DNA of 47,980 bases from the NCBI GenBank assembly GCA_021796225.1, contig JAJYOL010000006.1:1-47980 (forward strand). The letters run 5' to 3'. The notes under the pieces were generated by a model that ran no database searches, was not told the origin of the DNA, and saw only the letters and a list, made by a program, of their open reading frames with translations. Positions 28,263 to 47,826 of this stretch are shown in pieces. This DNA is from Microcaldota archaeon. Lineage in GTDB: Archaea; Micrarchaeota; Micrarchaeia; Micrarchaeales; CABMGC01. Each line of letters starts with the position of its first letter. Positions within the stretch are counted from its first letter, which is position 1. Both the position numbers and the translations under genes were made by a program.

Positions 28263-28271
28263 TTCAACACC

Positions 28272-29938: not shown

Positions 29939-29970
29939 AGAGATCCAACGATACAATAAAGGCAAGCATA

Positions 29971-29980
29971 CTTATAAATT
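29971..29980 (-). promoter_or_regulatory. TATA box for the ATPase operon
   Basis: The minus strand reads AATTTATAAG, about 35 to 40 bases upstream of the ATG at 29938. It is squeezed into the 66-base gap after the stop of the six-gene array, so the array and the ATPase operon can be transcribed separately. Confidence 0.55.
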
Positions 29981-30004
29981 CCTGCTTAACGGGCGATACC
30001 GTGC

Positions 30005-31168
30005 CTATATCGCGCGCAGTCTTCCCGACGTTCTTGCCATGCCTCCGAGTATTTCAGCTATCTGCGTTATGAATGCGTAAGTCATGGCGCTTATGAGTGC
30101 GGGGAAAAACAATACCGAAAGCCAATAATCACCGACACTGTTCTGCGCGTTTTTAATGCTCATCGTAATAGGGTTTGTTGGGGAAATCATACTGCTTAAT
30201 CCCGGACAGCTTTCAGACTGTCTGGTTGTGCCTCCGGAATCTTGTATCGGTACTACGCTGCATCCTGAATTACTTTGCAACGAAGATGCGATACTGCTGA
30301 GCTGCTGCACCGTTCCTTGAGAAGTGAAATAATAAGAAAAACTGAACATTACCGGCATGAAGAAGTAGAACCCTATGGCTATTGCCATCATCATGCCTCC
30401 AAGATGACGTGTAGGTATCAGGGACCGGAATATTATTCCGGGTATCAAAAACACGGGTATTGCCGCATACATGAAGAACACGATCGTGTAAAATTCTACA
30501 TGGAGCGCCATGAACCCCCCCATCATCATATCGAAAAAGGCAAAAAGTTCCCAAAAAGTGCTGTATTCGAGCATAAATGGCACAAGCGACGTATCCCCTG
30601 GAATATCGTAAGACACTCCACATGCCGAGTCTACAATTGGTATACATATAAACAACTGTGCCGAAGGTAAAACCATTTCAATAAGGCCTATCTGATACAT
30701 TTCCACAAACGTCACTGAACTGACGTTTATGATATTTCCAATATATCCTAAAGATATGCTATACGGATCATAGGCGCCTACGAAAAGTCCTGGTATCAAT
30801 CCGAACATCGTAGCCGCGACGAAGGAAAACAATATTACTATGAGCGCCGTTGCGGTAGCTTCGTAGAATTCTCCAATACCAAAGATTCTCAGCCTGTCGT
30901 TTCCCAAAGCTATCCCGAACATTATTATCGCTGCGGCTATGGAGAACGATATGAGCATTGCGGCGTATGCCACAGGCTCCCAGACACCCCATATACGTAT
31001 CGCTGCCGCATTTACATTGTTGCAATACCACGGTGCCGTTATGGAAACCACGCTGCTTGCTCCTCCTGTGTTAACATTGCTGCAGTATTGCGTGAATATG
31101 TTGCTCGATTGGGCTCCCGCTATTCCTACAAATGCGAAAAGCAGCAGTAAAACGGCGATTCTTTTCAT
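30005..31168 (-). CDS. VirB6/TrbL-like polytopic membrane protein, paralogue 6
   Basis: The 387-residue protein starts with a cleavable-looking signal peptide (KRIAVLLLLFAFVGIAGAQ) and has about seven further membrane helices. The shared paralogue signature is present as IIFRSLIPTRHLGGMMMAIA, as is the first motif RLRIFGIGEFYEATATALIV. An outside loop carries several Cys (CIPIVDSACG), which could form disulphides. It is last in the six-gene array, four bases after the previous stop. By architecture it fits the VirB6/TrbL channel component of T4SS, though sequence similarity to bacterial members is too faint for me to confirm by eye. Confidence 0.75.
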   Translation of the reverse strand: MKRIAVLLLLFAFVGIAGAQSSNIFTQYCSNVNTGGASSVVSITAPWYCNNVNAAAIRIWGVWEPVAYAAMLISFSIAAAIIMFGIALGNDRLRIFGIGEFYEATATALIVILFSFVAATMFGLIPGLFVGAYDPYSISLGYIGNIINVSSVTFVEMYQIGLIEMVLPSAQLFICIPIVDSACGVSYDIPGDTSLVPFMLEYSTFWELFAFFDMMMGGFMALHVEFYTIVFFMYAAIPVFLIPGIIFRSLIPTRHLGGMMMAIAIGFYFFMPVMFSFSYYFTSQGTVQQLSSIASSLQSNSGCSVVPIQDSGGTTRQSESCPGLSSMISPTNPITMSIKNAQNSVGDYWLSVLFFPALISAMTYAFITQIAEILGGMARTSGRLRAI

Positions 31169-31174
31169 CAAAGG

Positions 31175-32329
31175 TCACATTATGCGCGTAAGCAGCGATA
31201 TGAAGTCCATTCTTTCTCCTACGGATTTTGAAAAGTCCACAATGAACGTATCCACGATTGTTATGTTTATAAGCGGTATAAAAGTCATTCCCATACCGAC
31301 AAGACCGCCGTATATGAGAAACTGCTGAAGTAACGTATACATGGGCAAGGCTCCATAACTGCCTGCTACTCCATTCGGTAACAGAAATGCGGTTGCCAAC
31401 TGGCCCGTAGCCATCTGTAAAAATATTTCTCCTACTGTTAGAACAAATCCTCCGAGAAAACTGGCCGTACACCCAGCACCCAAGACCCCTGACGGTATGC
31501 CCATGTTACACATCAGGTTATGCCCTGCAACTCCCAATGCGTAATCAAGAAATCCGTAGCTTATGCTTGTCATAAGCGGATAAACAAAACCGATTCCAAT
31601 TGCAAAAGCAATCATTGCCCCTCCGAATGTACGCGTAACGCCGAAAGACCTCGCCACCAATCCCACTACCATCAAGGTTCCGAATATCAGTCCGGAAACG
31701 TCTATCAACAGATACTGAACCTGCACAAGCACGTAAAATATGTACATAGAATTAAGCATTGGCACTATGTAGTGGAATACAGGTTCTATCGGAAGAAGGG
31801 ATATGGATATCGAAGTATTTATCGTGCTTAACTTCGGAGGATATGTCAGAGTTATCGACGGTACCATGGAAACCAGTGTTCCTATCCAATATGTTTCGTA
31901 TGTCAAGCTCGTTATATCGTTATTGTAACTCCAAAGGTCGCACACCGAAAGGAAAAAGAGGTTGTTGTATCCCACGCCTGTATTGCCTGTGGGGTTAGTG
32001 ATTGCCGATGCACAGCTTGTTGGCATAAGTCCCGCATTTGTATACGCACTAAGTACGGGCATATTGATCAGCAAGCCTATGAATGCCAGAAATATCAGTA
32101 TCAGGACTATGGAGGAAAGTTCATCGTAGAGTTTGGCCTTTACCCATACCTTAAGGTCATTTCTTCCTATGAGCGGGCTTATTGCGTATATTATTCCGAG
32201 TATCGACATTATTGTCAATGTTATTATTATCGCTATCGGAAACCATATCACATACGGCGAAGTTATTGTGGAGCACAAGCCAGTACATTTTGTCGTTCCC
32301 TGCAATATCAACGGTATAAAATTCATCAT
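31175..32329 (-). CDS. VirB6/TrbL-like polytopic membrane protein, paralogue 5
   Basis: The 384-residue protein has about seven membrane helices and begins with a short outside segment holding two Cys (KCTGLC), without a clear signal peptide. It carries both array motifs: NDLKVWVKAKLYDELSSIVL after the first helix, and LVARSFGVTRTFGGAMIAFA in the core. The start overlaps the previous gene by four bases (ATGA) and follows an AAGGTGAT ribosome-binding site; ATG at 32326 is equally possible. It probably forms part of a hetero-oligomeric membrane complex with its five paralogues (inference). Confidence 0.75.
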   Translation of the reverse strand: MMNFIPLILQGTTKCTGLCSTITSPYVIWFPIAIIITLTIMSILGIIYAISPLIGRNDLKVWVKAKLYDELSSIVLILIFLAFIGLLINMPVLSAYTNAGLMPTSCASAITNPTGNTGVGYNNLFFLSVCDLWSYNNDITSLTYETYWIGTLVSMVPSITLTYPPKLSTINTSISISLLPIEPVFHYIVPMLNSMYIFYVLVQVQYLLIDVSGLIFGTLMVVGLVARSFGVTRTFGGAMIAFAIGIGFVYPLMTSISYGFLDYALGVAGHNLMCNMGIPSGVLGAGCTASFLGGFVLTVGEIFLQMATGQLATAFLLPNGVAGSYGALPMYTLLQQFLIYGGLVGMGMTFIPLINITIVDTFIVDFSKSVGERMDFISLLTRIM

Positions 32330-33504
32330 ATCACCTTCTGGAGCAGCTTGCCGCTCTGCAATGACGGGGCTCCGAGTATGTCACCAAGAAATTCAAGCAT
32401 ATCATACGCTATTATGAAGGAAATTATGAGGCCAGCCATTTGAAATACTATGTATGTTATTGTTGAAGCGTATTGCATTACGTTTTGGAACATTACATCT
32501 CCGAATGCGAATCCTACAAAGGAAGATACAAACGTTTCCAGTACCGAGAATGTATCACCAAGGATATCAAGCTTTACGTTACTACTGCCTGTTTCGTGGC
32601 ACAAAGTCGGTGCCGATTTGCAAATCGCGCTCGAGCTGGAGGCCGAACTAAAAGTATATGAAGAAAACGCGTAGAGGAATGCCGGGAAGATCACATAAAA
32701 CGATATGAACAATGCGATAAGCGCTCCACCGGCAGCCCTTGTCCATGGAAATGCACGCAATGCTATTCCTGCATAAAGAAATATCGGGAACAGGAAATAT
32801 ATTATAAAAAGCGTAAATATCAGCAGCATTCCCATTACTATTATGCTGAAAGTTATATCCATTTCAGACCAAACAGCCGTTCTAAGCGTTTGTGCGCCGT
32901 ATAATGGACCGAATTTAATCCCAAAATCCAACGGCATTACATTGATTTTGAAATCTATTATCATATTGTATATGAAAAGGTCATAGAATACGTCAACATA
33001 TGTGTATATCCCGTTCATTACTATGTTGTTCTGATAATTGGTGCACAAGTTCGTATAAAGTTGTCTCGCACTTACGAAACCCAAATGCGATGAAGTTGCT
33101 CCCGTCGTACTTGCGCTTGCAAGGTTTGCAAGAAACACTGTAGACCCGTTGAATACTCCTATCCCTCCGATTATCAGAACTACTATTGCCACATTGGCTA
33201 TGCTTTCAAGATATTCTGTTTTTACGAATGTTACGAGCTTTGTTATTCCAAATGCCGTGCCTATGGTATAGACGATACCCAATAACGACAGCACGAGAAG
33301 GCTTATTATCAGTGAAATGCCGAGAAGTTCCGTAGGTACCGTTCTTGATGCTATTCCTGCTGTGATAAGCGGGGCAGAAACAGCATTCTGCGCTCCGTTG
33401 CCGAATAAGGTATTGCAATCTAGTATCTGTATCAATTGCGCATGAACTGGAATGGATGTGATTAACAGAAGAAAGGGAATCATAAGCAATGCAATCCTAT
33501 TCAA
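32326..33504 (-). CDS. VirB6/TrbL-like polytopic membrane protein, paralogue 4
   Basis: The 392-residue protein has a signal peptide (IALLMIPFLLLITSIPVHAQ) and about seven membrane helices. The paralogue motifs are TKLVTFVKTEYLESIANVAI and IALRAFPWTRAAGGALIALF, the clearest example in the array. A start at TTG (33504) is chosen because AGGTGATTGA lies just upstream and gives the signal peptide its positive residue; the next ATG (33483) would leave a signal without charge. It lies eight bases after its upstream neighbour. Confidence 0.75.
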   Translation of the reverse strand: MNRIALLMIPFLLLITSIPVHAQLIQILDCNTLFGNGAQNAVSAPLITAGIASRTVPTELLGISLIISLLVLSLLGIVYTIGTAFGITKLVTFVKTEYLESIANVAIVVLIIGGIGVFNGSTVFLANLASASTTGATSSHLGFVSARQLYTNLCTNYQNNIVMNGIYTYVDVFYDLFIYNMIIDFKINVMPLDFGIKFGPLYGAQTLRTAVWSEMDITFSIIVMGMLLIFTLFIIYFLFPIFLYAGIALRAFPWTRAAGGALIALFISFYVIFPAFLYAFSSYTFSSASSSSAICKSAPTLCHETGSSNVKLDILGDTFSVLETFVSSFVGFAFGDVMFQNVMQYASTITYIVFQMAGLIISFIIAYDMLEFLGDILGAPSLQSGKLLQKVI

Positions 33505-33512
33505 TCAATCAC

Positions 33513-35024
33513 CTAAACGAACCTGCCTAACCCTATTATATTGGTGTCTCCTCCGAGAAGGCTTGACAAGCCTACCACGGCAGAGAGCGATACCAGTACA
33601 TTGAGTATATTCATTATGTATCCCGTTACCCCCATTATTCCGTATGCATTGAACAGTGCAAGAGTTGCTTTGGCCATCGTTTTGGGCAGGAAGCAATCGT
33701 ATCCCGGCGGAGTCATAATGCTCGTTCCGGTAAAGCCTGTGAATATTCCTCCTGCACTTGAAACGGTATCTAAAATACCGAATGCCGCTCCGGCTAGCGG
33801 AACAAGGTAATAACTTGAAAAACCAAATTCGACACCGAGAATACTGGAGTAGCTTCTAACGCCGTTCCCCGGATCCCCTGCGGGATAACAGTCGTAATAA
33901 TTCAGTATTTCCGCAACATTCGGGAATTTGAAAAAGTTCAACTGATATGTTACTGCCTGCGATATTTCCGAGTCCTGCAGTGGCAATTCCTTTATCTGCA
34001 TTGAAGGTATGGAATTTGTGCCTATTATCTGCACGCATCCCTGCTGATTGCCCGGTTCCAATCCTTTCGGACCGTATTGGCACAGTACATTACTATTACC
34101 AAGCGATGTGTATTCAAGCAAAACCAGCATCGGTGTTATTATCAATGCAACAAGGACAAATGCTATGATGAGCCCTCCAATCCTTCTCGTGAAAAAGAAC
34201 GTCCTAAGTATTATTCCCGCAGCGAGCATGTACGGCCACCCGTACATGATCAGAAGTATGACAACCATTTCGACAAAATACATGTAAAAGAGGGCAGTAG
34301 CCATTATTTCTATGGGTGGATTTGTAACCCTGTTGAATATGTATCCGACGTAAGGCATGTATGTTGCCGTAATCTGTACCGCATCATATGTGCCTTGAAA
34401 CGGTATGGCGCAAGTCACTGGCATGCAGAATGTCGTTACGGAGTGAAAAGTTCTCAACCATTGCAGAAATCCTTCAACGTAATAAAGTGCATTCAGGTTG
34501 TACAGCGTCTGGTTTGTCATGTTTGCATCTATAACATACGATGCCGCCAATGCGTAGTCCAAATTCGCCGTCATACTGTTTCGCTTGTTAGCAGTCGCTA
34601 TTATCTGATTGCATATCTCACTGGTCGGTCCGGGATCTTTGCTGTTGACGAATGCTATTGCTGAATCAGCCAGATGCGGAGAATTGCATACTGAAGATAT
34701 GCTGCTCGGAGATATCTGCATCGTCTTTGTCGATGTAAGCGTCGTGCCGAATATGGTGAGAATACCTATTATTAATACGACAAGCACCACTGTTCCAATT
34801 GCCTGATAAAATTCTGCAAGAGCTTGCCCTTTGACCTTTGCATTATTCAGTGCGACTCCTAACATGTAATAAGCTGAGGTAAGCATCACGCTGAGCAACA
34901 CTGCTGCGATTATGATGGGGATCCAGTTTTGGAATTGTGAATAGCCTGTTTCGAGACCGGCTGCACCTACCGAAACCGCGAACATTGCGGCAAAAATTAT
35001 GAAAACAGCTGTCTTGTTTACCAT
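33513..35024 (-). CDS. VirB6/TrbL-like polytopic membrane protein, paralogue 3 (longest)
   Basis: At 503 residues this is the largest member. A signal-like helix (KTAVFIIFAAMFAVSVGAAG) is followed by the motif AKVKGQALAEFYQAIGTVVL, an extended outside loop of about 140 residues with six or more Cys, the core motif IILRTFFFTRRIGGLIIAFV, and a second large outside loop rich in Gly/Cys/Tyr. The enlarged loops set it apart from its paralogues and suggest surface exposure. The ATG overlaps the previous stop (TGATG). Confidence 0.75.
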   Translation of the reverse strand: MVNKTAVFIIFAAMFAVSVGAAGLETGYSQFQNWIPIIIAAVLLSVMLTSAYYMLGVALNNAKVKGQALAEFYQAIGTVVLVVLIIGILTIFGTTLTSTKTMQISPSSISSVCNSPHLADSAIAFVNSKDPGPTSEICNQIIATANKRNSMTANLDYALAASYVIDANMTNQTLYNLNALYYVEGFLQWLRTFHSVTTFCMPVTCAIPFQGTYDAVQITATYMPYVGYIFNRVTNPPIEIMATALFYMYFVEMVVILLIMYGWPYMLAAGIILRTFFFTRRIGGLIIAFVLVALIITPMLVLLEYTSLGNSNVLCQYGPKGLEPGNQQGCVQIIGTNSIPSMQIKELPLQDSEISQAVTYQLNFFKFPNVAEILNYYDCYPAGDPGNGVRSYSSILGVEFGFSSYYLVPLAGAAFGILDTVSSAGGIFTGFTGTSIMTPPGYDCFLPKTMAKATLALFNAYGIMGVTGYIMNILNVLVSLSAVVGLSSLLGGDTNIIGLGRFV

Positions 35025-36259
35025 CACATGTTACCCCAGAAAGGTCCTACTCCTATCGCACCCGAAATGGATCCCAATCCTCGAGCCAAACCTTGTGCAA
35101 AACCTATTGTTATTGCAATGTCAAGTGCTATAAGTACGAGGCTTGAAAACATATATTCGGAAATCTCTATTCCATAACCGTTTACCTGCGCCGGTATTTC
35201 GGCTATGGCACCCATTAAATTTATAAACTCCTGTCCGAGACCTCCATTTCCGCTTATTGCACCCCCAAAGAACAGCCCATCAATACTTACGGTACTTCCA
35301 AAAACGCCGAGCTTCAACGGTGTATTGCTATCGAGAATACTGCTGAATGGCAAGTTTATCAGCATATCATTCTGTGCGTATGCGTAATACGGGTTGCAGC
35401 TTCCAGTATACTGCTGCGTTATATGTCCCAAGTCCATCACGTTATTGCTGAAATTCAAACCCACGTTATTCGTGCAAAACATCCAGTTTATGGCATAATT
35501 ATTGAATACCAGTGTTAGCGGAAGGATGAAGTAAAACGCTATCGCTATGGCAAGGAATGCGTCAGCAGCTTCACGAAGTTTCGGCCCTCCAAACGGTATC
35601 ATGCGTATGACGAGCGCTAATGGAACCATCATGGTTATGGCAAAGGATTGCGCAAGAACCAGCAACAACCACATGATGAAAAGCACCCCGTACGATACCA
35701 TCATCATAACCGTATACGTGCTGGTTGAAACGCTCGCATAACCGTAAAAGATTCCAAGTATGTTTGCATTTAAAATCAATCCCGATCCATGTTGTACTAT
35801 CTTTTCCGTTATTCCTATGATAGCTTCGGCCAGGTTTCCCGCAATTAGGTAATTTATGCTTGTAACATACATATCTCCGAATATCTGCCCGCTGGTAGTA
35901 AACAACAGGTTGTTCATGTACAATTGTGCGAATTGAAACGGATCTTGGTAGGTGCCTGCCGTAAGTCCCTGGGTCATCGAATTGCCCATCTGGCATCCGA
36001 GTCCAGCAAAAATCACCAATATCAATATTATAAACAAAGCTATGATACCCTGTACTATCTCCGCTTTGACTATACCTCTGAGTTTTTCCCTTCTTGTTGT
36101 GGAAAGGAAACTGCTAAGTGCATATATCAATCCTCCAACTGAGATAGCCAAAAGCACAATGATTGTGGATATCGCAATCCAATCTCCCTGGTTCAACGCA
36201 CCGAATGTACACGTTTCGGATGCCGCACCGGCAACTGTGTTAAGCAGTATTAAATTCAT
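35024..36259 (-). CDS. VirB6/TrbL-like polytopic membrane protein, paralogue 2
   Basis: This protein of about 411 residues has roughly seven membrane helices. The first motif is REKLRGIVKAEIVQGIIALF. The core motif is the most divergent of the six (LVIRMIPFGGPKLREAADAF), keeping the Arg and Pro but with the GG pair moved. Outside loops hold a few Cys (MFCTNN, SCNPYY). The start is either ATG at 36259 or TTG at 36271, both close to the end of the preceding gene, so translation is probably coupled. Confidence 0.72.
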   Translation of the reverse strand: MNLILLNTVAGAASETCTFGALNQGDWIAISTIIVLLAISVGGLIYALSSFLSTTRREKLRGIVKAEIVQGIIALFIILILVIFAGLGCQMGNSMTQGLTAGTYQDPFQFAQLYMNNLLFTTSGQIFGDMYVTSINYLIAGNLAEAIIGITEKIVQHGSGLILNANILGIFYGYASVSTSTYTVMMMVSYGVLFIMWLLLVLAQSFAITMMVPLALVIRMIPFGGPKLREAADAFLAIAIAFYFILPLTLVFNNYAINWMFCTNNVGLNFSNNVMDLGHITQQYTGSCNPYYAYAQNDMLINLPFSSILDSNTPLKLGVFGSTVSIDGLFFGGAISGNGGLGQEFINLMGAIAEIPAQVNGYGIEISEYMFSSLVLIALDIAITIGFAQGLARGLGSISGAIGVGPFWGNM

Positions 36260-36263
36260 TTCA

Positions 36264-37514
36264 TCACGCAAGTTTCAGTTTGCCGCCCAAATTCAACCTT
36301 ATTGTTCCTCCAAGAGATTTGGCTATGCTGTCCGTCAACGGATATATTATCATCAAGTCAAGAACAAACAACAAAAATTGCACTATCAAATAGAATGCAT
36401 AATGTATTACATCGTTTACGAATGGGAATATTCCTCCCAACATCGCTTCCAACCCATAATTTATCGAAGCCGTGTTATCAAGCATTGCCGTGACGGAAGA
36501 TACTAATTGGGAGTTAGCTATGACGTATATTGTTCCGGTGAATGGATTAGTTACTATTATTGGGCTGGGCTGAGGAAGGACATTGGCTGCCCATGCCGAC
36601 ACTGGCAAATTCAACAACACGAGCGTTGCGGGAAATATGAGCGCCATCGATATACCCATCGCAATAAGCGTGCCTCCTACCCCTCTTACTACAGGAAATG
36701 CGCGGAGCACGAGTCCCATCGGTATCAGGACTGTAAGTCCGACAGAAACGAGTAATGGCAATCCGGGTATCATTATTCCATCAAGTGCTGTGACAGGGAA
36801 AAGGACATACTGTGTCAAATCGTATATCATAGATTCAAAGTGCTGTATGATTATGTTACCAGATTCGAGCATGAAGTTTTGGTATATATTCATGATAAAC
36901 CCGGAAAGTATGGCACTACCGCCATCGGGAGGTATCAACGGCAATGGGATCGGCACCCAAAGCCCTATTACCATATTTTGGAAAACGCCTATACCTATGC
37001 TTTCCGCACCTATGAACTCCCATGCAGGCTGTACTGCATTTCCAACACTGCAAAAATACGATTCCGATGCGGTTATCAAAGCGCCTATGTTAGGTATGTA
37101 ACTGTTTCCAGGGCTGTGGACCCCGGAAACGATAAGGGCTATGCTGCTAACAAGCGTTATGATAGTATAAATGGCGGCTACGAGAAGTGCGGATTTCGCT
37201 ATCTCGTAATATTCGCCGCTAAGCCAGCTCTTGAGCTTCGTTCCTGGCAGCACCGCGTTTATCATGTATCCTACCGCAACGACATCTATTGCAAGCGACA
37301 GGGCAATAATCGAAAGCGCTATTGCGGTCGACTCGCTGGGCAGCGGTATACTTCCTCCAGTCGCGGTATTCGACAGCCCGGAAATCCCTCCCGTCTGGCA
37401 TGCCTGCGTATAAGTAATGTAATGCGTCTGGCTTGCACTAGCGGTCTGCGCGGCAGCTATGTGTGCAGCAAAAACCGTAAAAATCAGGATCAGGATTCCT
37501 GAGGTCAAGCGCAT
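36264..37514 (-). CDS. VirB6/TrbL-like polytopic membrane protein, paralogue 1
   Basis: The first gene of the array encodes 416 residues, with a signal peptide (MRLTSGILILIFTVFAAHIA then AAQT) and about seven membrane helices. Motifs: GTKLKSWLSGEYYEIAKSAL and LVLRAFPVVRGVGGTLIAMG. The C-terminus ends in a basic, glycine-rich segment that should face the cytoplasm. A TATA box about 29 bases upstream of the ATG marks the promoter for the whole array, which continues through six genes with gaps of at most eight bases or short overlaps. Confidence 0.77.
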   Translation of the reverse strand: MRLTSGILILIFTVFAAHIAAAQTASASQTHYITYTQACQTGGISGLSNTATGGSIPLPSESTAIALSIIALSLAIDVVAVGYMINAVLPGTKLKSWLSGEYYEIAKSALLVAAIYTIITLVSSIALIVSGVHSPGNSYIPNIGALITASESYFCSVGNAVQPAWEFIGAESIGIGVFQNMVIGLWVPIPLPLIPPDGGSAILSGFIMNIYQNFMLESGNIIIQHFESMIYDLTQYVLFPVTALDGIMIPGLPLLVSVGLTVLIPMGLVLRAFPVVRGVGGTLIAMGISMALIFPATLVLLNLPVSAWAANVLPQPSPIIVTNPFTGTIYVIANSQLVSSVTAMLDNTASINYGLEAMLGGIFPFVNDVIHYAFYLIVQFLLFVLDLMIIYPLTDSIAKSLGGTIRLNLGGKLKLA

Positions 37515-37537
37515 GTTTAATAGTTGCCCTTATCAAG

Positions 37538-37549
37538 ATATAAATATAC
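37538..37549 (-). promoter_or_regulatory. TATA box for the six-gene VirB6-like array
   Basis: The minus strand reads GTATATTTATAT about 25 to 35 bases upstream of the ATG at 37514, consistent with a nearly leaderless operon transcript. Confidence 0.6.
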
Positions 37550-37563
37550 TCTTGGCAACGGAA

Positions 37564-38322
37564 TCAGTGCGACAAAAGCGGGAACTTTCTCATGTACGCT
37601 TCCGTCTGCAGTATGACAAAATACGGCAGTATGACTATCGAAATGAGGAAAAGCATGACGTATCCCGATACGACGGGCCCCCAAGGTATAGCTATTATTA
37701 TCGCGTCAAGAACCGATATTGTAACTGCAAAGAGCAGTACCCATATCGCGTAGTATTGCGGCGAGCTCCTTATGAGCTTCACGCTGTCCGTTATAGCCCT
37801 TCCCACCCGCTTGTTGTCTATCACTACCGCACTCGGCGCATAGAACATGACCGTTCCTATCAGAAGCCCGAATATCGCGGTTATCAGCACCGCGGCAGAC
37901 GGGAAGAGGGCGTAGCTTGCAAGATTTACCGCAAGAAGGAGAAAGCCGTATATCATGAGTATTACGAATACCTTTCCAACGTGTTTTTCTATTTCCATCA
38001 GGGCTCTCTTTCCTATTCCCGAATGCGTCTTTCTGGATTTTACTATCAGGCTTATCGCGACATACGCGAAGCTCAGGAAAAGCAGCGTGAATATGTACGA
38101 TACAACTATGACTGCAATGCTGAAAACGCTTATGCCTGCCATCCCCGCCCCGCTGAGGAATATCCCTCCAAGCGTTACGTACGTGGACAGATGTGCGGCT
38201 ATCGGTATTATGAATGCTATTGCGAACGGTATCGAAAAGAGCCAAACGAGTTTAAGGTTCTCCGCATACGTTCTGCATGCTTCCTGCAGCAATCCAGGCA
38301 TGTTTTCCCTCAGCCTATACAT
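37564..38322 (-). CDS. Six-helix membrane protein of unknown function
   Basis: The 252-residue protein has about six hydrophobic helices and cytoplasmic basic segments (VKSRKTHSGIGKRALMEIEK and DNKRVGRAITDSVKLIRSSP). Its general look resembles the glycerophosphoryl-diester/DUF4013-type integral membrane proteins of archaea, but I cannot name a family. It lies 50 bases upstream of the VirB6-like array on the same strand, separated by that array's promoter. The ATG at 38322 is preferred over a TTG three codons earlier. Confidence 0.65.
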   Translation of the reverse strand: MYRLRENMPGLLQEACRTYAENLKLVWLFSIPFAIAFIIPIAAHLSTYVTLGGIFLSGAGMAGISVFSIAVIVVSYIFTLLFLSFAYVAISLIVKSRKTHSGIGKRALMEIEKHVGKVFVILMIYGFLLLAVNLASYALFPSAAVLITAIFGLLIGTVMFYAPSAVVIDNKRVGRAITDSVKLIRSSPQYYAIWVLLFAVTISVLDAIIIAIPWGPVVSGYVMLFLISIVILPYFVILQTEAYMRKFPLLSH

Positions 38323-38372
38323 GCCAATCAAGTATTAAAAACATATCGCGGTTGCATCATTCTGCAAATCCG

Positions 38373-40274
38373 TCATTTTACATACGCGCTTTCATTCACC
38401 ACGTCGTCGGAATAATAGACGTATTTCGTATCGTAAATCATCGCATGAAGCCTAGTTGCCCTGTCTGTGACATGTTGCCCTTCTATCACCGCATGTACGT
38501 CGTAAATACCATCTTTTCCAACAAGATTTATCCTGTTGTAATTGACATAACATGTATAACTATCGTTGCATTCCGGATGCGTGCCGATCAGGCTGTTGTT
38601 GATTCCGTATATACCATACACCATCGTATAATTGCTATATCCCTGCAGGTAAAGGTATACCGTTCCGTTTGTCATGTTTGAATAATGCAGTTGTGCGTCG
38701 TATATCGTATTATTGCCGATATAGCTTATACTCTGATTTGTAATACGCACGTCAAAGTTCGAAAGATACTGCATGTGATACAAATATATTCCAATGACAA
38801 ATACCATTACGATTATCAAAAGCGCCAGATAAAACACACCGATATTTCTATGCAGGTATCTCGTAATCAATCCTCTGTCCTGTTTTTCCTTCTTTACCGC
38901 AGCCAAAGCAAATGCGCCGAAGAACAGGAAGAACGTATAATATTTACCCAAAGTGTGAAACAGCACCATCATAGGCATGAGAGATAGAAATGGCACAAGA
39001 ACCTTCCTATCGAAGAATAACAGAAGAGTTATTGACAATATCGTAAACATTGAAAACGCAAAAACAGCCGCATCTATCGGGACATGATATCCAAACAGCA
39101 TCAAAGAACCAGTTGGCGGTATTCCAAATGGAAAAAGATTTCCTATCGGTGCAAATACCGCATCAAAATATGCTCTGGGGTTTGCAATTATGAAAACACT
39201 GTTTATAAGAAGGAACACTGCAACGGCTCCTGCAGCTTTTTTCATGCCCTTTAACAGTCCCTCTCTGTTTAATGCATATACCAACATCAGTATTATCGGT
39301 ATCCATGCTTCTTCCTGTAACGATGCGGCAATTCCTAATGGTATAAAGGAATATTGACTATCAAGTTTCACATATGATATGACAAGAAACAGCAGTACAA
39401 GGTAGTCTACTGGACTTGTAACCGTACTAAGCATAAATACAAACATGGCAATAAATCCGAAATCAAATCCGCGCAACTTTTTTTCATTGAGCAGTATTGC
39501 AATGCCACTTACGAGCAAAAAGATAAATATCGAAACTTCTATCTTGACGCCGATGTGCGATATATTGTATATCGTAGGCAACGAGAAAAGATAGAATGGG
39601 ACAGCAACTATAAAGTAAAGGGCAGGGTAGTTGGTTTTGCCGATAACTTCGTTATTCATCGTCAGCGTTCCGCCCGCCGTGGAAAAATTAGAATAGATGT
39701 ACTTTGCAAACGATTCCGCATAGGGGTTTTGCTGCATCAAAATGCTTTTAACGTCTAAGGCGCTTATAATTGTCTCGTCTCCTACCTGAAACGATTTCAC
39801 AATATATACGAAAAAAATAATACTGATTAAGAAAGCAATGGCGAGAAGAAAAAGTCCTAATCTGATCTGTTTTTTTGCAAAAATAAAATATGCTCCGAAG
39901 GCAGAGCATGCAAACGTGGGGATTAGGAACAAGAGATAAATTCCGAATTCACGTGCATATCCCAAACCCTTAATTATCGTATAAACTGATGCAATTTTAG
40001 CATGAAATGAAAATAATATCACAAACGCTATCGTGAGGATTATCGGAAGGATTAATCTCACATTTTTTCCATCAATGCCTGTTAACTGTTTTCCTGATGC
40101 TATCAATCCATAGATTATGAAATATATGAATCCAGCCGCGATATACAATACAGATAATGCGTTATACGCTAAAGAACTCGAATATGTTTCATTACTAACA
40201 ATCAAAAAATACGCAAACGATAAAAGCGCCATATAAAAAGCAGCCTTTTCATATCTGCTGCCGCTTGCATCCAT
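38373..40274 (-). CDS. GT-C-type membrane glycosyltransferase candidate
   Basis: The 633-residue protein has about twelve membrane helices and a C-terminal outside domain of about 130 residues with several NxS/T sequons and a Cys pair (CNDSYTC). The first long outside loop contains VGDETIISALDVKSILMQQN, placing an acidic pair (Asp-Glu) where GT-C lipid-sugar transferases keep their catalytic acid. A second loop carries QEEAW. This layout suggests a polyprenyl-phosphate-sugar-dependent transferase that glycosylates surface proteins or lipids. Its place between the pilin-like genes and the VirB6-like array suggests modification of that apparatus, which is inference. A TATA box lies at 40297-40305. 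Confidence 0.6.
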   Translation of the reverse strand: MDASGSRYEKAAFYMALLSFAYFLIVSNETYSSSLAYNALSVLYIAAGFIYFIIYGLIASGKQLTGIDGKNVRLILPIILTIAFVILFSFHAKIASVYTIIKGLGYAREFGIYLLFLIPTFACSAFGAYFIFAKKQIRLGLFLLAIAFLISIIFFVYIVKSFQVGDETIISALDVKSILMQQNPYAESFAKYIYSNFSTAGGTLTMNNEVIGKTNYPALYFIVAVPFYLFSLPTIYNISHIGVKIEVSIFIFLLVSGIAILLNEKKLRGFDFGFIAMFVFMLSTVTSPVDYLVLLFLVISYVKLDSQYSFIPLGIAASLQEEAWIPIILMLVYALNREGLLKGMKKAAGAVAVFLLINSVFIIANPRAYFDAVFAPIGNLFPFGIPPTGSLMLFGYHVPIDAAVFAFSMFTILSITLLLFFDRKVLVPFLSLMPMMVLFHTLGKYYTFFLFFGAFALAAVKKEKQDRGLITRYLHRNIGVFYLALLIIVMVFVIGIYLYHMQYLSNFDVRITNQSISYIGNNTIYDAQLHYSNMTNGTVYLYLQGYSNYTMVYGIYGINNSLIGTHPECNDSYTCYVNYNRINLVGKDGIYDVHAVIEGQHVTDRATRLHAMIYDTKYVYYSDDVVNESAYVK

Positions 40275-40296
40275 ATTAATCCTTTAAGCTATATGC

Positions 40297-40305
40297 CTTT
40301 TATAC
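40297..40305 (-). promoter_or_regulatory. TATA box for the GT-C gene
   Basis: The minus strand reads GTATAAAAG, 23 to 31 bases upstream of the ATG at 40274, consistent with a nearly leaderless transcript. Confidence 0.6.
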
Positions 40306-40378
40306 TCGAACATTAAATTTTTGATCCGTATCTATTAGCTTATTAGGCAATCTCAAAATTAGATCAAAAGTCTATTAA

Positions 40379-40409
40379 AAAAAGAACAGATGCCGCAAAA
40401 AACGCGGCA
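40379..40409 (-). terminator. Intrinsic terminator after the VirB2-like pair
   Basis: On the minus strand TGCCGC pairs with GCGGCA (40404-40409 with 40391-40396) around a T-rich loop and is followed by TCTGTTCTTTTTTT. It lies about 30 bases after the stop of the pilin-like gene at 40438. Confidence 0.7.
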
Positions 40410-40437
40410 CCATGTAGTTATAAAATACTAGTAAGTT

Positions 40438-40845
40438 TTATAGTTGCCCGCAGGTTCCTATATAACCCGTGCCTCCACCAAGGTTTGTTATCATGTTTAC
40501 AAGGTAAGGTGCAAGCAGTACGAGTATTATCCCGACTATTCCTCCCATGATCATACCGAGTGACCATCCCTGCAGGTTTCCTCTCAGGTTACCCGCGGCA
40601 GGAAGCATGTGCGCACCTGCGTAAAGGCTGCCTCCGGCAATGAACAGGAGCAATGCAAGTATGCCTATCACGGTTCTTATTTCGCCGACTATTGCACATA
40701 GACTCAAGGAAAGTGCTGAAACACTCCCTGTTCCGGTACCTGTCGTTGTCGCTGAAACAATTGTGGCAAAGATCGTTCCTACCACGAACACATAGTACAA
40801 CATCTTCAGGTTTTTCAAAAACCTTGGGTTCTTTATCAAATTCAT
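40438..40845 (-). CDS. VirB2/TrbC-like pilin candidate (copy A)
   Basis: The 135-residue protein has an N-terminal helix that looks like a signal ending near residue 35 (FVVGTIFATIVSA), then a mature part with two membrane helices (VIGILALLLFIAGG and MIMGGIVGIILVLLAPYLV). A short basic/hydrophilic turn (AAGNLRGNLQGW) joins them. This two-helix hairpin with small residues is the architecture of VirB2/TrbC pilins. The mature C-terminal half is nearly identical to copy B. The ATG at 40845 follows GGGAGATAAA; ATG at 40857 is possible. A TATA-like ATATTTAAA on the minus strand near 40925 may give it its own promoter. Confidence 0.75.
   Translation of the reverse strand: MNLIKNPRFLKNLKMLYYVFVVGTIFATIVSATTTGTGTGSVSALSLSLCAIVGEIRTVIGILALLLFIAGGSLYAGAHMLPAAGNLRGNLQGWSLGMIMGGIVGIILVLLAPYLVNMITNLGGGTGYIGTCGQL
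40520..40623. repeat. 104-bp perfect direct repeat, copy 1
   Basis: Inside pilin-like copy A, this stretch is identical base for base to 41026-41129 in copy B, 506 bases away. It codes for the turn and second membrane helix. Flanking gene sequence is diverged, so recent gene conversion or strong sequence constraint is implied. Confidence 0.95.
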
Positions 40846-40943
40846 TTTATCTCCCATTCAGTATTAACATTGCATATTATGCCTTTTCCTCTTCTTATAT
40901 CTATTCTCATTGGTTTAAATATCTTGCCTATGAACGAAACTTA

Positions 40944-41333
40944 TTACGTAACGCACGTTCCTATGCCTTCGGATGCGCCTCCGCCTATGCCTATTATCAT
41001 ATTCAGTATATACGGTGCAATAAGCACGAGTATTATCCCGACTATTCCTCCCATGATCATACCGAGTGACCATCCCTGCAGGTTTCCTCTCAGGTTACCC
41101 GCGGCAGGAAGCATGTGCGCACCTGCGTACATCGTACCTCCCGCAATGAAAAGAAGCAATGCGAGCACTCCTATTACCGTTCTGAAAGAAGTCACTATGC
41201 TGCAAAGGCTTGCGGTAAGCGTGCTTACCTGCTGATTGACCGTTGAGCTGGTCGATGCCGATACGAGCGCTCCTGCCATTGCCACTGCCAAAACCATGAA
41301 ATACAAAGTCTTCAATGTCTTAAAGAAGTTCAT
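40944..41333 (-). CDS. VirB2/TrbC-like pilin candidate (copy B)
   Basis: The 129-residue protein has a signal-like N-terminus (KTLYFMVLAVAMAGALVSA), a short Ser/Thr-rich mature start, then two membrane helices (VIGVLALLLFIAGGTMYAG and MIMGGIVGIILVLIAPYIL), and ends with GTCVT. It is the upstream partner of copy A. A TATA box on the minus strand (GTATTTAAGG, about 41373-41382) and an AAGGTAGAG site precede the ATG. Two abundant pilin-like subunits with separate promoters would fit a filament or membrane pore made of mixed subunits (inference). Confidence 0.75.
   Translation of the reverse strand: MNFFKTLKTLYFMVLAVAMAGALVSASTSSTVNQQVSTLTASLCSIVTSFRTVIGVLALLLFIAGGTMYAGAHMLPAAGNLRGNLQGWSLGMIMGGIVGIILVLIAPYILNMIIGIGGGASEGIGTCVT
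41026..41129. repeat. 104-bp perfect direct repeat, copy 2
   Basis: Identical to 40520-40623; see that entry. The identity stops abruptly on both sides (preceding base t against c, following base a against c). Confidence 0.95.
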
Positions 41334-42443: not shown

Positions 42444-42776
42444 ATGATTGGAAAGGGCAAGTTAGAGACGAGAATAGCCACAATGCCGGAAGTGCTTGAA
42501 ATACTCGAAGAGAGGAGAAAGGCCGGCGAGATAGGCTACGAACAAGAAGTAACGCAGGAATATTCAAAGAAGTTTTCACAGCTGAGCGTGTCTGAAGCCA
42601 AGAAGCTTGTAACGCAAGTGACCGCACTCGGCATAAGCGAGAAGACGGCATCGAAAATAGCAGAGCTCATGCCTACTGAACAGATACAGGTAAAGCATGT
42701 GCTGGTCCTCGAAAGGAAGGTCTTTGAAGACGAGACGGTAAACAAGATAGTCGAAATAGTCAAGTCTTACAAATAA
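42444..42776 (+). CDS. rpoF: RNA polymerase subunit F (Rpb4-like)
   Basis: The 110-residue helical protein is archaeal RpoF, which with RpoE forms the stalk of RNA polymerase. Typical family features are the opening MPEVLEILEERRKAGE, the motif YEQEVTQEYSKKFSQLSVSEA, and the end IAELMPTEQIQVKHVLVLE. Length is normal. The gene is followed by DUF655 and faces rpl21e, the trio that forms a conserved archaeal neighbourhood, although rpl21e is usually upstream in the same direction and not convergent. Confidence 0.9.
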   Translation: MIGKGKLETRIATMPEVLEILEERRKAGEIGYEQEVTQEYSKKFSQLSVSEAKKLVTQVTALGISEKTASKIAELMPTEQIQVKHVLVLERKVFEDETVNKIVEIVKSYK

Positions 42777-42794: not shown

Positions 42795-43382
42795 ATGCCA
42801 TTTGATGAGCACGAGCAAAGAAGAGAGGACCTGGAGGAAAATGCGATAGTCTTAGACTATCTTCCGATAGGCCGTTCTTCTTCCGCAAGGGCCGAGCCGT
42901 TGATACAGCTCATAGGGGACAACAAATTCACGCTGCTCGAGGCCGTGCCTAAGGGAAGCACGTTTACCGTGGGTGAATCCGTATACATAGGCAAAGGTGA
43001 CAGGGATAAGGTTTCTCTGATAAAAAGCAGGCTCACTTACGCGGACCTCACTGAAGGCGCGAAGAAAGAGCTTCCGAATGCGGTATACGAAATAGTGAAA
43101 AAACACGAGCAGAAGTTCGTAGACCTGTTCAACAATGCGGGTTCTCTCAATATACGCATGCATTCGTTGGAACTGCTTCCGAATATAGGCAAGAAACATT
43201 TGTCTGCAATATTGGAAGCGCGTGACGACAAACGCTTCGAATCCTTCCAGGACATAGCGAACAGGGTTCCACTGCTTCAGGATCCCGCAAAGCTGATAGT
43301 GGAGCGTGTGGTGATGGAGCTTAAGGGAGAGAGCAGATTCTACCTGCTTACAAGGCCGCCGTCATTGGGGCACATGCGCTGA
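42795..43382 (+). CDS. DUF655 RNA-binding-like protein
   Basis: The 195-residue protein belongs to DUF655, a conserved archaeal family linked by gene order to ribosome and RNA polymerase genes. It opens with an OB-like beta domain (NAIVLDYLPIGRSSS, then ESVYIGKGDRDKV). A helix-hairpin-helix segment follows (LELLPNIGKKHLSAILEARD), then the family end LTRPP. The GKK-containing hairpin suggests nucleic-acid binding. It lies 18 bases downstream of rpoF. Molecular function is not established. Confidence 0.92.
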   Translation: MPFDEHEQRREDLEENAIVLDYLPIGRSSSARAEPLIQLIGDNKFTLLEAVPKGSTFTVGESVYIGKGDRDKVSLIKSRLTYADLTEGAKKELPNAVYEIVKKHEQKFVDLFNNAGSLNIRMHSLELLPNIGKKHLSAILEARDDKRFESFQDIANRVPLLQDPAKLIVERVVMELKGESRFYLLTRPPSLGHMR

Positions 43383-43474: not shown

Positions 43475-43771
43475 TCACTTCGACTGGAATTTCTTAAGGT
43501 GCTCGGGCGGAACTACGATGCTCCTCTTTGCGGATTTTGAAACCCTGACTTCAACGATATAGGCCTTGCCTCTCGTTTCAAGCACCGTGCCGACTCTGCC
43601 CCTGTATCTCGGGTGCGGTATGTTCCTGAAATTGCCCATAGGCGATATGACTACCTTGTCGCCTGCGCCGAACTTGTTTATCAGTCTGGTGACTCCTGCC
43701 CTGGAGACCTTGTTGTGTCTCGAAAGGTGTCTTGTTCTTCCGGAGAATAATCCATGAGAGCGTCCTACCAT
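43475..43771 (-). CDS. rpl21e: 50S ribosomal protein L21e
   Basis: The 98-residue basic protein is L21e of the large subunit. Recognisable parts are the N-terminal VGRSHGLFSGRTRHLSR, an SH3-like barrel with KFGAGDKVVISPMGNFRN, PHPRYRGRVGTVLETRGKAY, and the C-terminal PPEHLKKF. Length is usual. GGTGAAGAT precedes the ATG. The gene is convergent with DUF655 across a 92-base gap that holds only weak hairpins. Confidence 0.95.
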   Translation of the reverse strand: MVGRSHGLFSGRTRHLSRHNKVSRAGVTRLINKFGAGDKVVISPMGNFRNIPHPRYRGRVGTVLETRGKAYIVEVRVSKSAKRSIVVPPEHLKKFQSK

Positions 43772-43853
43772 ATCTTCACCGATGCATAAAATGTGCTATC
43801 CGCGTAACAATATAATATTGATACTTAGAATTGCAGATAGTAGTGGCATATAC

Positions 43854-43884
43854 ATATATAAATACCTTTCATTTATATTTAAAT
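43854..43884 (+). promoter_or_regulatory. Two tandem TATA boxes before the one-repeat TBP gene
   Basis: ATATATAAAT (about 43855-43863) and ATTTATATTTAAAT (43871-43884) both lie at plausible distances. The first would start transcription at the ATG at 43895, and the second near the ATG at 43907. Two strong boxes in front of a TBP-fold gene suggest feedback by the protein on its own promoter (inference). Confidence 0.55.
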
Positions 43885-43894
43885 AGCGAAGCTG

Positions 43895-44224
43895 ATGGTT
43901 GGTATAATGAAAAAAGAGTCAAAATCTTCAGGCAAGAAAGTAAGCCTGCACCCTGAATTCAAGATTGAGAACATAGTCGCGAGCGCGGACTTGGGCGTAG
44001 AGCTGGATCTTTACGGGATAGCAAAGGCATCATCCGATGTCGATTACGAACCCGAGCAGTTCCCTGGAGCAATATGCAAGATTCACGATCCGAAGACGGC
44101 ATTGCTTCTCTTCAAGAACGGAAAGATAATCTGCACGGGTGCAAAGACCGAAGCCGACATAAAGAGGGCAATAGATCAGGTCATAAAGATAGTGAAAAAC
44201 TACATAATAGCACCAAGGGAATAA
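43895..44224 (+). CDS. tbp: TATA-binding protein with a single TBP repeat
   Basis: The 109-residue product has one complete TBP repeat and nothing more. The repeat contains IENIVASADLGVELDLYGIA, then YEPEQFPGAICKI, then DPKTALLLFKNGKIICTGAK and a closing helix. The two DNA-intercalating phenylalanines of a repeat are present (FPG and LLLF). Normal TBPs have two such repeats in one chain of about 180 residues. After the last residue the frame stops at TAA, and no second repeat is found in any frame downstream, so this is not a frameshift of a full gene. Two molecules would have to pair to form the saddle. A Lys/Ser-rich N-terminal tail of about 20 residues precedes the repeat. Start ATG 43895 or 43907. 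Confidence 0.88.
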   Translation: MVGIMKKESKSSGKKVSLHPEFKIENIVASADLGVELDLYGIAKASSDVDYEPEQFPGAICKIHDPKTALLLFKNGKIICTGAKTEADIKRAIDQVIKIVKNYIIAPRE

Positions 44225-44346: not shown

Positions 44347-44457
44347 ATGGGTTGTAGCGGAAAGCATACGGCCCGCTAGATATTGTGGTCATTCTGCGCG
44401 CCGCATGCCATGTACTATTCCGGCATGCCGCAGGAACGGGGCTTTTGGTGGTTGTTC
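44347..44457 (+). other. Structured GC-rich leader with a 10-codon upstream ORF
   Basis: This segment is far richer in G+C than its surroundings. It holds an upstream frame ATG to TAG (44347-44379, peptide MGCSGKHTAR) in phase with the big gene, and a hairpin AGCGG/CCGCT inside that frame. It also holds a long hairpin at 44394-44433, where CTGCG pairs with CGCAG and GCATGCC with GGCATGC around an internal bulge. It could be a regulatory leader or a small RNA. I see no cobalamin-riboswitch box or tRNA fold. GGTGG near its end is the ribosome-binding site for 44458. Confidence 0.45.
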
Positions 44458-47400
44458 ATGGGGGTAAGATACAAAATTTCCGGCAAAGGCAGTTCCGTTT
44501 ACGAAGGAAATGACCCAGTCAAAAGATTCGAAGCACGACTTGACAAATTCTTTTCAAATCCTGCGGGGGACAGAATCGCGGCAAATCTCGACAAAAACAA
44601 GACCCATGGTATTTCACGCGAATCCCGTATCATGACTGATGCATCAAGGCAATTTGTAAACGAACACTCCGCGGATATCCTTTCCAAATATCCGAATTCT
44701 TCAACTTCTGACGTATCATCGCAAGAGTTGGGCAAAACGATAAAAAAACTCAATCCCCTGGTTGCTGCAGAACTTCTCATATCCATGTCAGAAGAATCGT
44801 TTGTGCATCTTTCAAACGGCGAGTTTCTTTCCAAACTATCGGCAATGGATCACAACATCGCAAGCGCATTGCTATACGAAATAAGGCTTACGGAAAAATC
44901 ATCGGCGGTTACGAAAATCGGCGGCAATCCATTCGCTCTTGCGGATCCTAAATTGCTGAATGAAACATCACTTCGCTTTTTCGAACGACTGGGAGCGGAA
45001 GCGGCAAGCGAACTCTTTTATGCGATACGCAAGACCGATAACGCCGGCGCACTCCTGAACGAGAGCGTCATGAACGAGAGCATTGTCAAACTGGCAAGGG
45101 AAAACGTACGGCTTGCAGGTGAACTATTTGTTGCAATAGGCACCACAAACATGCCGGAACGCCTTACTTCTGAAAAATTCATAAGTCACCTGCGTTCGAT
45201 GGGTGCGGAAGTGGCCGTAGATTACGTATCCGCATTATGGCTAATGCCGCGCAATGCGTCCAGACTCGTATCAGACAGCATGGCGCGAAAGATAATAGAC
45301 AGGAAAATAGACGTATGGACGGATGTCGTCAGAAATCCTTCAAGCGAGGTGAGAAGGTCGGAACCTCTGGTGCTGATTGCAAACACGGAATCGGAAGGTC
45401 ATGACAGAGGGGCAAAACTTGCATTCCAGTATTTCATGCAAAACGGGTTCAATGTCATGTACGCTGGCAAGGCAACCACCCCACAGGCAATAACCAGCAT
45501 GGCTGAAAAATACAAAGCAGGGGCAATAGGTATCAGTCTTCCCGGAGATCAGTATGGCAATGTGGCAAAAGAGCTCGTATCAAAAATGAAAGCGGTAGGC
45601 ATGGGCAACGTGCCCATCTTCGGCGGAGGCATCGTCTCAAAAGGCACGATCGAGCACCTATCAAGGAACGGCATAAGGTTCCTCACAGACAAAGATTCGA
45701 TAACACGGATCATATCCTCGGTAAAATTGGACGGTATTAATCCGAAAAAATTGTCGTACGGTAATTTCCTGGCACTTTCAAGTACGTATTTTTCACCGAC
45801 AACGCAGGAATACGCATACGTTTCGGGAGATCACGCTGCAATAACACTGCCATACCTTTTCAACGGCGCCGTTTCCTATAGTGCTTCAGCATCACGCAAC
45901 ACTGATTTGCGATTTCAAGGCATGATGTTTGCATTGAAGTCTGGTCTTGCACGCATGAACAGCCAAAATGGTTTCCGTTTAACAATGACTTCTTCGATAT
46001 CTGAAAATTTTGTCAAAAAATCCTTCAGCATGCATAACACCGCATTGCATAATGCTTTGCAATCTTCGCTTCGAATTGCAATGGCAGCAAATCAGCACAC
46101 GCATTCGGCAAAAGTTTTACCCATTTCTTCCCAAAGCATTTCAAAAACAAACTTTTCACGAATCAATGCACGAATGCCGAATAAATCAATAGTGCTGCAA
46201 AGCAAAGCATCAGATAAAGCATTCGTATTGCATTTTCCAGTTAAATTCATCCTTTCAAATGCGCGAATCTCAGGGACGGCTTTTTCAAGTCAAATTCCTA
46301 TTCCGATATCGGCAAAAACAACTCCTACAATCGTTACTAATCGTGACATTCCGGCAAACAAGGTTCAAGTTCATTCGACATTGCAAAAAACATTTTTTTC
46401 CCAACACAACCATACCCTATTGCAGACCTCTTCCCGTAATGTGTTAATATCGCAAATTTTCACCTCTCCAGTTCAAATGACAAGACCGCAATTCCAAGAA
46501 ATGGTAATGCAAATGCTTCCGAACGTATCGGGCAATGCGTCATCTACGAACATCACCAGCGAATTTAAGATAAAACCGATGCAGGCTGCGCCGCATAAAA
46601 TAAAATATTCAAACGCATTGAAACCGTCCTTTCAAACGTTGACGGAAAAAACGAGTACGCCTTTGGATCGGGATCATTCCCCATGCTTGGTTTTATATTC
46701 CGAAAAACATCCTCCCGCAGAAATCACACCACCTGGACAAATACGCCTTCAATATCAAATACTTGGGATAACGCTTACAGGAAAAACTACAGTGGCAATT
46801 CCGGCTGCATTGCGGTATGCCTATCAGGCTGCCGTGCAACAGTTTAGCAATACGGCACAGAACATCGAAATCACTCCGCAGGCTCAGGCGTTTTATTCCG
46901 CTTACGGGCTCGGCGTGCAGCCGGCTTCGCAGGCCGCAGCTTTGTCACTAGCTTCTCAGCAACCCACACTAGCCAGGCTACAACAATCCCCACAATCAGT
47001 AAATCTTCAAGCACCCCTGCTAGCAAATACAATACCAACGAGCGGCTCACTATCTCAGCCATATCAACTCCAATCAGCGTCAACACTGACCAATACGAAC
47101 GCAGTCAATCAAACATCCAACGGGCAAGCTGCTTTTTTTCAACGGTTTTCATACGATTATCCTTACACGCAAACGGGTATAAACAAACCGAGATTTCGTT
47201 TTCTACAGACGAAAATAACAATCGAAATCCCTACACTGTCATTCTCTAAGACAAATTCTCCAGTGCCATCTACTCTTCATCATCATGTTCCAATAACCGT
47301 TAAAGAAAAAATGGGAAGAAACCGATATTCCGTGTCCGATACGGCCATTTCCACTGCAAAACTGCAAAAATTCTTTCGGCCAATCGGTTTGCCACATGCA

Positions 47401-47826
47401 ATTGCAACAACCGTAACGAAACGTTTTGAGGATTTTCACATTGAAAACGAAGAACAGCCGCGGAAGCAACCGGCGGTTGCACTACGATCAAAACACATTT
47501 CCGATCCCCATACGGATGCCGTTGCCATAGATAATGCAAGCAACCTGAAAGATTCTCGGGCTTCGAATCCAACCGTTGTCGTAAGTAATGCGGCGGTAGA
47601 TTCTCATCGCAGGGAAAGGCCGGCATATCGGCACGTTCTGCCGTTCCAATTCAATGAAAAAAGAAAAGGAGACGTAATCGCGTTAACAAGCGTTGCGTCA
47701 AACACGCACGCAATATTGTTTGTCATTGCATGTTTTGGAATTGCATCCCTGTTGTCTGTGCAATTTTTCTCGGCACATCACTTCTCTGCGGCTCTCTTGC
47801 TGACTTTCTTTATAAAAATAATGTAA
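44458..47826 (+). CDS. Large protein with a B12-binding domain and a membrane-anchored Ser/Thr-rich tail
   Basis: The 1122-residue protein has four parts. Residues 1-300 are helical, with about five repeats of 35-40 residues (for example NPLVAAELLISMSE, NIASALLYEIR, GAEAASELFYAIR, NVRLAGELFVAIG, GAEVAVDYVSALW). Residues 301-422 are a B12-binding domain of the methylmalonyl-CoA mutase C-terminal type, with EGHDRGAK (candidate cobalt-ligand His315; the usual first Asp is Glu), GISLPGDQY and FGGGIVSKG. Residues 430-1085 are low-complexity, rich in Ser, Thr, Asn and Gln. The last 35 residues hold a membrane helix (HAILFVIACFGIASLLSVQF). No mutase or methyltransferase domain is present. The start at 44458 follows GGTGG; ATGs at 44410 and 44425 are possible. 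The end overlaps the convergent DedA gene by 49 bases. Confidence 0.8.
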   Translation: MGVRYKISGKGSSVYEGNDPVKRFEARLDKFFSNPAGDRIAANLDKNKTHGISRESRIMTDASRQFVNEHSADILSKYPNSSTSDVSSQELGKTIKKLNPLVAAELLISMSEESFVHLSNGEFLSKLSAMDHNIASALLYEIRLTEKSSAVTKIGGNPFALADPKLLNETSLRFFERLGAEAASELFYAIRKTDNAGALLNESVMNESIVKLARENVRLAGELFVAIGTTNMPERLTSEKFISHLRSMGAEVAVDYVSALWLMPRNASRLVSDSMARKIIDRKIDVWTDVVRNPSSEVRRSEPLVLIANTESEGHDRGAKLAFQYFMQNGFNVMYAGKATTPQAITSMAEKYKAGAIGISLPGDQYGNVAKELVSKMKAVGMGNVPIFGGGIVSKGTIEHLSRNGIRFLTDKDSITRIISSVKLDGINPKKLSYGNFLALSSTYFSPTTQEYAYVSGDHAAITLPYLFNGAVSYSASASRNTDLRFQGMMFALKSGLARMNSQNGFRLTMTSSISENFVKKSFSMHNTALHNALQSSLRIAMAANQHTHSAKVLPISSQSISKTNFSRINARMPNKSIVLQSKASDKAFVLHFPVKFILSNARISGTAFSSQIPIPISAKTTPTIVTNRDIPANKVQVHSTLQKTFFSQHNHTLLQTSSRNVLISQIFTSPVQMTRPQFQEMVMQMLPNVSGNASSTNITSEFKIKPMQAAPHKIKYSNALKPSFQTLTEKTSTPLDRDHSPCLVLYSEKHPPAEITPPGQIRLQYQILGITLTGKTTVAIPAALRYAYQAAVQQFSNTAQNIEITPQAQAFYSAYGLGVQPASQAAALSLASQQPTLARLQQSPQSVNLQAPLLANTIPTSGSLSQPYQLQSASTLTNTNAVNQTSNGQAAFFQRFSYDYPYTQTGINKPRFRFLQTKITIEIPTLSFSKTNSPVPSTLHHHVPITVKEKMGRNRYSVSDTAISTAKLQKFFRPIGLPHAIATTVTKRFEDFHIENEEQPRKQPAVALRSKHISDPHTDAVAIDNASNLKDSRASNPTVVVSNAAVDSHRRERPAYRHVLPFQFNEKRKGDVIALTSVASNTHAILFVIACFGIASLLSVQFFSAHHFSAALLLTFFIKIM

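Follow-up and report, generated by a model that had tools for sequence, protein, structure and literature searches.

The window, a 47,980-nucleotide stretch of a Micrarchaeota contig, carries a gene for a TATA-binding protein (TBP) that consists of one lobe, with conserved neighboring genes:

42444..42776, plus strand: RNA polymerase subunit Rpo4 (RpoF), PF03874; conserved neighbor
42795..43382, plus strand: DUF655 protein, PF04919; conserved neighbor
43475..43771, minus strand: ribosomal protein L21e, PF01157; conserved divergent neighbor of TBP
43852..43887, plus strand: two TATA-like elements, ATATATAAATACC and ATTTAAATAG, found by upstream comparison and conserved in the genus
43907..44224, plus strand: gene for the single-lobe TBP, 105 aa when read from the conserved ATG; PF00352 positions 1-85 of 85
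44045..44068, plus strand: YEPEQFPG (residues 51-58), with the TFB-contact Glu pair (E52, E54) and the first intercalating Phe (F56); invariant in single lobes
44111..44113, plus strand: second intercalating Phe (F73, in LLLF), placed by alignment to solved TBPs; invariant

Both TATA-like elements lie within the divergent intergenic region between L21e and TBP (43772-43906), and the first of them may serve L21e. On the 3' side of TBP, an ORF of 1147 aa (44383-47826, plus strand) has a B12-binding domain early and a long low-complexity remainder. Farther off, 26745-41333 on the minus strand holds a type IV secretion/conjugation-like cluster with a HerA/TraG-type ATPase (26745-28262), several multi-membrane proteins (30005-37514) and two TrbC/VirB2-like pilins (40438-40857 and 40944-41333), recognized through weak Pfam matches.

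The longest open frame at the TBP locus runs from 43895 to 44224 on the plus strand (109 aa) and closes with a TAA stop at 44222-44224. An earlier note, made from the sequence of the window, had proposed this closed 109-residue frame as the gene. The closure stands, but the start probably does not: the ATG conserved in relatives is at 43907 (M5), four codons 3' of the one chosen then, and the product is therefore most likely 105 aa long. The protein matches the Pfam TBP model PF00352 once and over its full length, at 104.3 bits (E about 3e-30), above the curated cut-off of 22.9 bits. Its single lobe can be aligned with either half of Methanocaldococcus and Pyrococcus TBP, the second half of M. 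jannaschii TBP fitting slightly better than the first (85.5 vs 77.8 bits). The note's description of one TBP repeat with both intercalating phenylalanines and a TGAK segment (residues 81-84) was thus borne out. F56, F73, E52, E54 and indeed the whole Y-E-P-E-Q-F-P-G motif are unchanged across 98 single lobes, and in canonical C lobes the two Glu of YEPE touch TFB (PMC7221094). Codon differences from the nearest relative comprise 43 synonymous and 2 non-synonymous changes, indicating purifying selection on a working gene. The E-value, the codon pattern and conservation in hundreds of genomes exclude a chance match to TBP.

The source genome is a 789-kb MAG in 15 contigs, estimated to be 82.7% complete. 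The note had named two ways in which a conventional TBP might still be hidden, as a frameshifted second lobe after 44224 or as a full two-repeat gene elsewhere, and we looked for both. No second lobe, frameshifted or otherwise, lies 3' of the 44224 stop, and a PF00352 search of the whole MAG (82.7% complete) at E<=10 returned neither a two-repeat TBP nor any second match. Judged by the canonical arrangement of two lobes in one chain, the window TBP falls short, having one.

In a survey of 301 Micrarchaeota genomes, in which counts were assigned by family rather than by inspection of every genome, families with single-lobe genes account for 217 genomes and families with fused two-lobe genes (f3-f13) for 84. 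The single-lobe TBP is the rule in the former and a phylum-wide trait, not the oddity of one organism. Many genomes of families f1 and f2 have two single-lobe genes, A and B, which are far apart or on separate contigs and mostly 44-59% identical. The genus of the window and at least two other genera have A only, and the basal families f14 and f18-f27 show one single-lobe gene. Two complete genomes of cultured relatives, that of Ca. Micrarchaeum A_DKE (NZ_CP060530.1, 989,838 bp) and another of 952,257 bp in one contig, each contain two single-lobe genes and lack a two-lobe TBP; the Mia14 chromosome has been published as circular (PMC5498576). Single-lobe genes were also present in four genomes (G308, G330, G381, G390) of a sample of other archaea.

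Some genomes depart from these patterns. Genomes of genus g93 (family f15) have as many as three single-lobe TBP genes (L312 and L313; L314 with L201; genomes G094 and G090), two of those in G094 being about 1 kb apart. Genome G254 has, beside A and B single lobes, an 8-kb contig (L002) with a canonical two-lobe TBP; that contig is probably foreign. In G350, one of the other archaea, a 726-aa ORF (L386:1008-3185, plus strand) encodes four degenerate TBP lobes and, after them, a putative transmembrane segment.

When the sampled genomes of g1 (the genus of the window), g12 and g18 were searched with a profile of the B paralogue, the only gene recovered was A. Taking genome completeness as the chance of detection, the probability of missing B everywhere if each genome had it is 1.2e-7 for g1, 1.4e-7 for g12 and 1.4e-10 for g18. 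The genus of the window has apparently lost B. Since neither the source genome nor the genus yielded another TBP, the natural interpretation of the single lobe is a homodimer.

Single-lobe and fused TBP genes share the same L21e-Rpo4-DUF655 locus. A tree built from B', A' and A'' of RNA polymerase (60 genomes, 1778 columns) placed all 14 Micrarchaeota with fused TBPs in one clade (support 99) nested within single-lobe families, and a constraint uniting all single-lobe Micrarchaeota in one clade was rejected (delta lnL 145, p 8e-7). An unrooted tree of 113 lobes (85 columns) resolved three groups: canonical N lobes (83/84), canonical C lobes (91/87) and single-type lobes (100/99), the last of which takes in both halves of the fused Micrarchaeota TBPs. 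Forcing the fused N lobes into the canonical N group cost 60.9 lnL units (p 0.003). The best lobe tree does not unite the fused lobes of all Micrarchaeota in one clade, but such a clade is not rejected (p 0.36). The nesting of the fused genomes, together with N lobes that do not join canonical N, implies that the fused form was re-made within Micrarchaeota. The two fused halves are 60-76% identical in most Micrarchaeota and 51% identical in family f6; in the other archaea the values are 79-81% for G370 and G350 (81% for G350) and 54-60% for G320, G341 and G361, and in canonical TBPs they are 27-56%. Two-lobe TBPs have apparently been rebuilt separately in other archaea too (G350/G370 and the G320 group), and the fused form seems to have re-evolved from a single lobe more than once. 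As part of the explanation that we favor overall, the single-lobe state would be ancestral for Micrarchaeota and fused TBPs would have arisen later, from a single lobe at the same locus. A genome from the family of the window (G121; L128 / L053, JAGWHJ010000032.1) contains two A lobes in tandem and in frame, whose repeated ends match at 99 of 102 bp; the contig end truncates the first lobe. This tandem could be a fusion in the making or an error of assembly.

Relic or reduction is a separate issue. The single-lobe lineage, comprising Micrarchaeota and related archaea, might have split off before the internal duplication from which every other TBP derives, retaining the pre-duplication homodimer and later reinventing the two-lobe form independently. 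We consider this possible but unlikely. In the unrooted RNA polymerase tree, single-type genomes are set apart from the eight canonical genomes tested (support 100), and this split and the lobe tree are what one would expect had the lineage branched off at the base of Archaea before the duplication, yet both trees are unrooted. AU tests did not reject placing the single-type lobes beside the lobes of DPANN-like genomes (N lobes p 0.47, C lobes p 0.40), 'DPANN' being an outgroup label that here reflects small genomes and clustering, not names. Moreover, a homodimer is under pressure to average both halves. We also considered descent from one or the other canonical lobe (N or C) in particular: diagnostic residues split 2 to 3, and AU tests gave no decision. 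Were the pre-duplication reading true, these archaea would still be using the ancestral homodimeric TBP.

An AF2 model of the window protein is a confident single lobe (pLDDT 90.4). All of its Foldseek matches with E<=0.001 were TBP chains or TBP-containing complexes, matched over one lobe each, with fits mostly of 0.7-1.7 Å. A natural fused TBP from genome G083, with lobes 62-65% identical to that of the window, was modeled as a whole saddle (pLDDT 94) with TM 0.8-0.9 to solved TBPs.

The source genome encodes TFB with a zinc ribbon and two cyclin repeats (G000:C13). Across the genus of the window the TFB zinc ribbon was clearly found in just 4 of 10 genomes (G173-G181); those in which it was not found include G175 (94% complete) and G178 (90%). 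An EM search of 203 upstream regions of the source genome recovered AA-N2-TWTWWAWA, a BRE followed by a TATA box, in about 62%, with a log-likelihood of 157 vs 46-61 in eight shuffled sets. The BRE is on one side of the TATA box only, and the full 8-bp box is kept with both half-sites conserved. TATA boxes of single-lobe genomes are nearer to a palindrome than those of pooled canonical or fused sets: asymmetry was 0.022 in the source genome, 0.009 and 0.030 in genomes with A and B, and 0.074 in the pooled canonical set, although the bootstrap range of the source genome overlaps the pooled canonical range. Because taxa were pooled and f2 is equally symmetric, we take this symmetry as suggestive and, since genomes with both A and B show it too, do not use it as proof of a homodimer. 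According to a review, the TBP-TFB-DNA complex is oriented through contacts between TFB and the BRE (PMC7289017), so a symmetric TBP should be tolerable.

We propose, with a probability of about 0.82, that the window gene encodes a general TBP that works as a homodimeric saddle, with TFB and the BRE giving direction, and that the single lobe is ancestral in the phylum. The halves of a normal TBP pair through the first strand of the fold. Two identical lobes would likewise pair edge to edge through this strand to give a saddle of full symmetry over the TATA box; each of them would insert two phenylalanines and present an identical TFB-contact stirrup. With the invariant Glu pair in every copy, each could bind TFB. 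A symmetric saddle cannot itself set the direction of transcription, and we infer that TFB has to set it by reading the BRE on one side. Relatives that have retained the diverged B paralogue could form A-B heterodimers. The modeled G083 saddle and the G121 tandem, as natural fusions, lend indirect support to a saddle made of two copies; if real, the G121 tandem would be a natural single-chain version of the proposed homodimer.

We also weighed other readings of the function. The lobe might pair with a different lobe, either a B-type TBP or an unrecognized partner, whose gene is missing from the MAG or too diverged to detect. The many f1 and f2 relatives with A plus B and the 82.7% completeness of the source MAG leave room for such a partner, but the B profile detects A alone in the sampled genomes of three genera, with a joint miss chance of about 1e-7 or less in each, and the basal families f14 and f18-f27 likewise show one single-lobe gene; we hold this to be improbable. 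Slightly less probable again is that the protein binds without pairing, with TFB holding a single lobe on half of the TATA box. Bacterial TBP-domain proteins such as RNase HIII do have one lobe per chain (PMC7221094), but promoters here keep the whole 8-bp box with both half-sites, and two-lobe fusions arise repeatedly from such lobes. That the gene is a fragment, pseudogene or assembly artifact, with a normal TBP in the missing part of a draft MAG, deserves almost no credence: the complete genomes of two cultured relatives carry one-lobe genes alone, the locus is conserved across the phylum, and differences are 43 synonymous vs 2 non-synonymous. On the strength of the complete genomes and of selection, we ruled out an artifact of a truncated MAG.

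The history could also be read in the opposite direction, the fused Micrarchaeota TBPs being the original two-lobe gene homogenized by gene conversion and the single lobes the outcome of repeated loss of one half. Concerted evolution would likewise make N and C lobes alike, and the lobe tree does not fix the number of fusion events. However, the fused clade is nested in single-lobe families (99; alternative p 8e-7), and this history needs several independent losses of one half, which together make it rather unlikely.

The usual description of TBP, the protein that marks gene starts, is of a saddle with two lobes throughout archaea and eukaryotes, derived from one ancient duplication. Most of a phylum lives instead with one lobe per gene, presumably as a homodimer or an A-B pair. 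The homodimer presumed to be ancestral thereby ceases to be a mere thought experiment, since such a protein is available for expression. The re-formed two-lobe TBPs would be natural replicates of the duplication-fusion step. A further prediction of our proposal is that, in these archaea, TFB and the BRE alone set the polarity of transcription.

The earlier note knew of no described archaeal TBP of this kind. The form had in fact been mentioned: one methods sentence of Ravarani 2020 (PMC7221094) states that archaeal single-lobe TBPs were found, consistent with Brindefalk 2013. It concerns the same kind of protein, but on taxa, gene number, phylogeny and mechanism that sentence itself is silent. 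The literature searched contained no account of the taxa, distribution, paralogues, re-duplication or mechanism of single-lobe TBPs, and in the Micrarchaeota and DPANN literature searched TBP was at most listed, never discussed.

RNase HIII and other bacterial TBP-domain proteins resemble the window protein in having one lobe per chain (PMC7221094), but they are not transcription initiation factors, and the structural match to the window lobe is weak (3asm, E 0.23). Canonical archaeal TBP, as in Methanocaldococcus (2z8u) and Pyrococcus (1ais), has the same lobe fold, Phe pair and TFB-contact Glu pair, with BRE-plus-TATA promoters and a TFB partner common to both systems. It differs in having two lobes per gene where the window TBP has one. 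Window-type lobes also fall outside the canonical N and C groups in the lobe tree (100/99), although a place beside DPANN-like N or C lobes is not rejected, and read PGAI and FKNG where canonical lobes read PGLV and F-SG.
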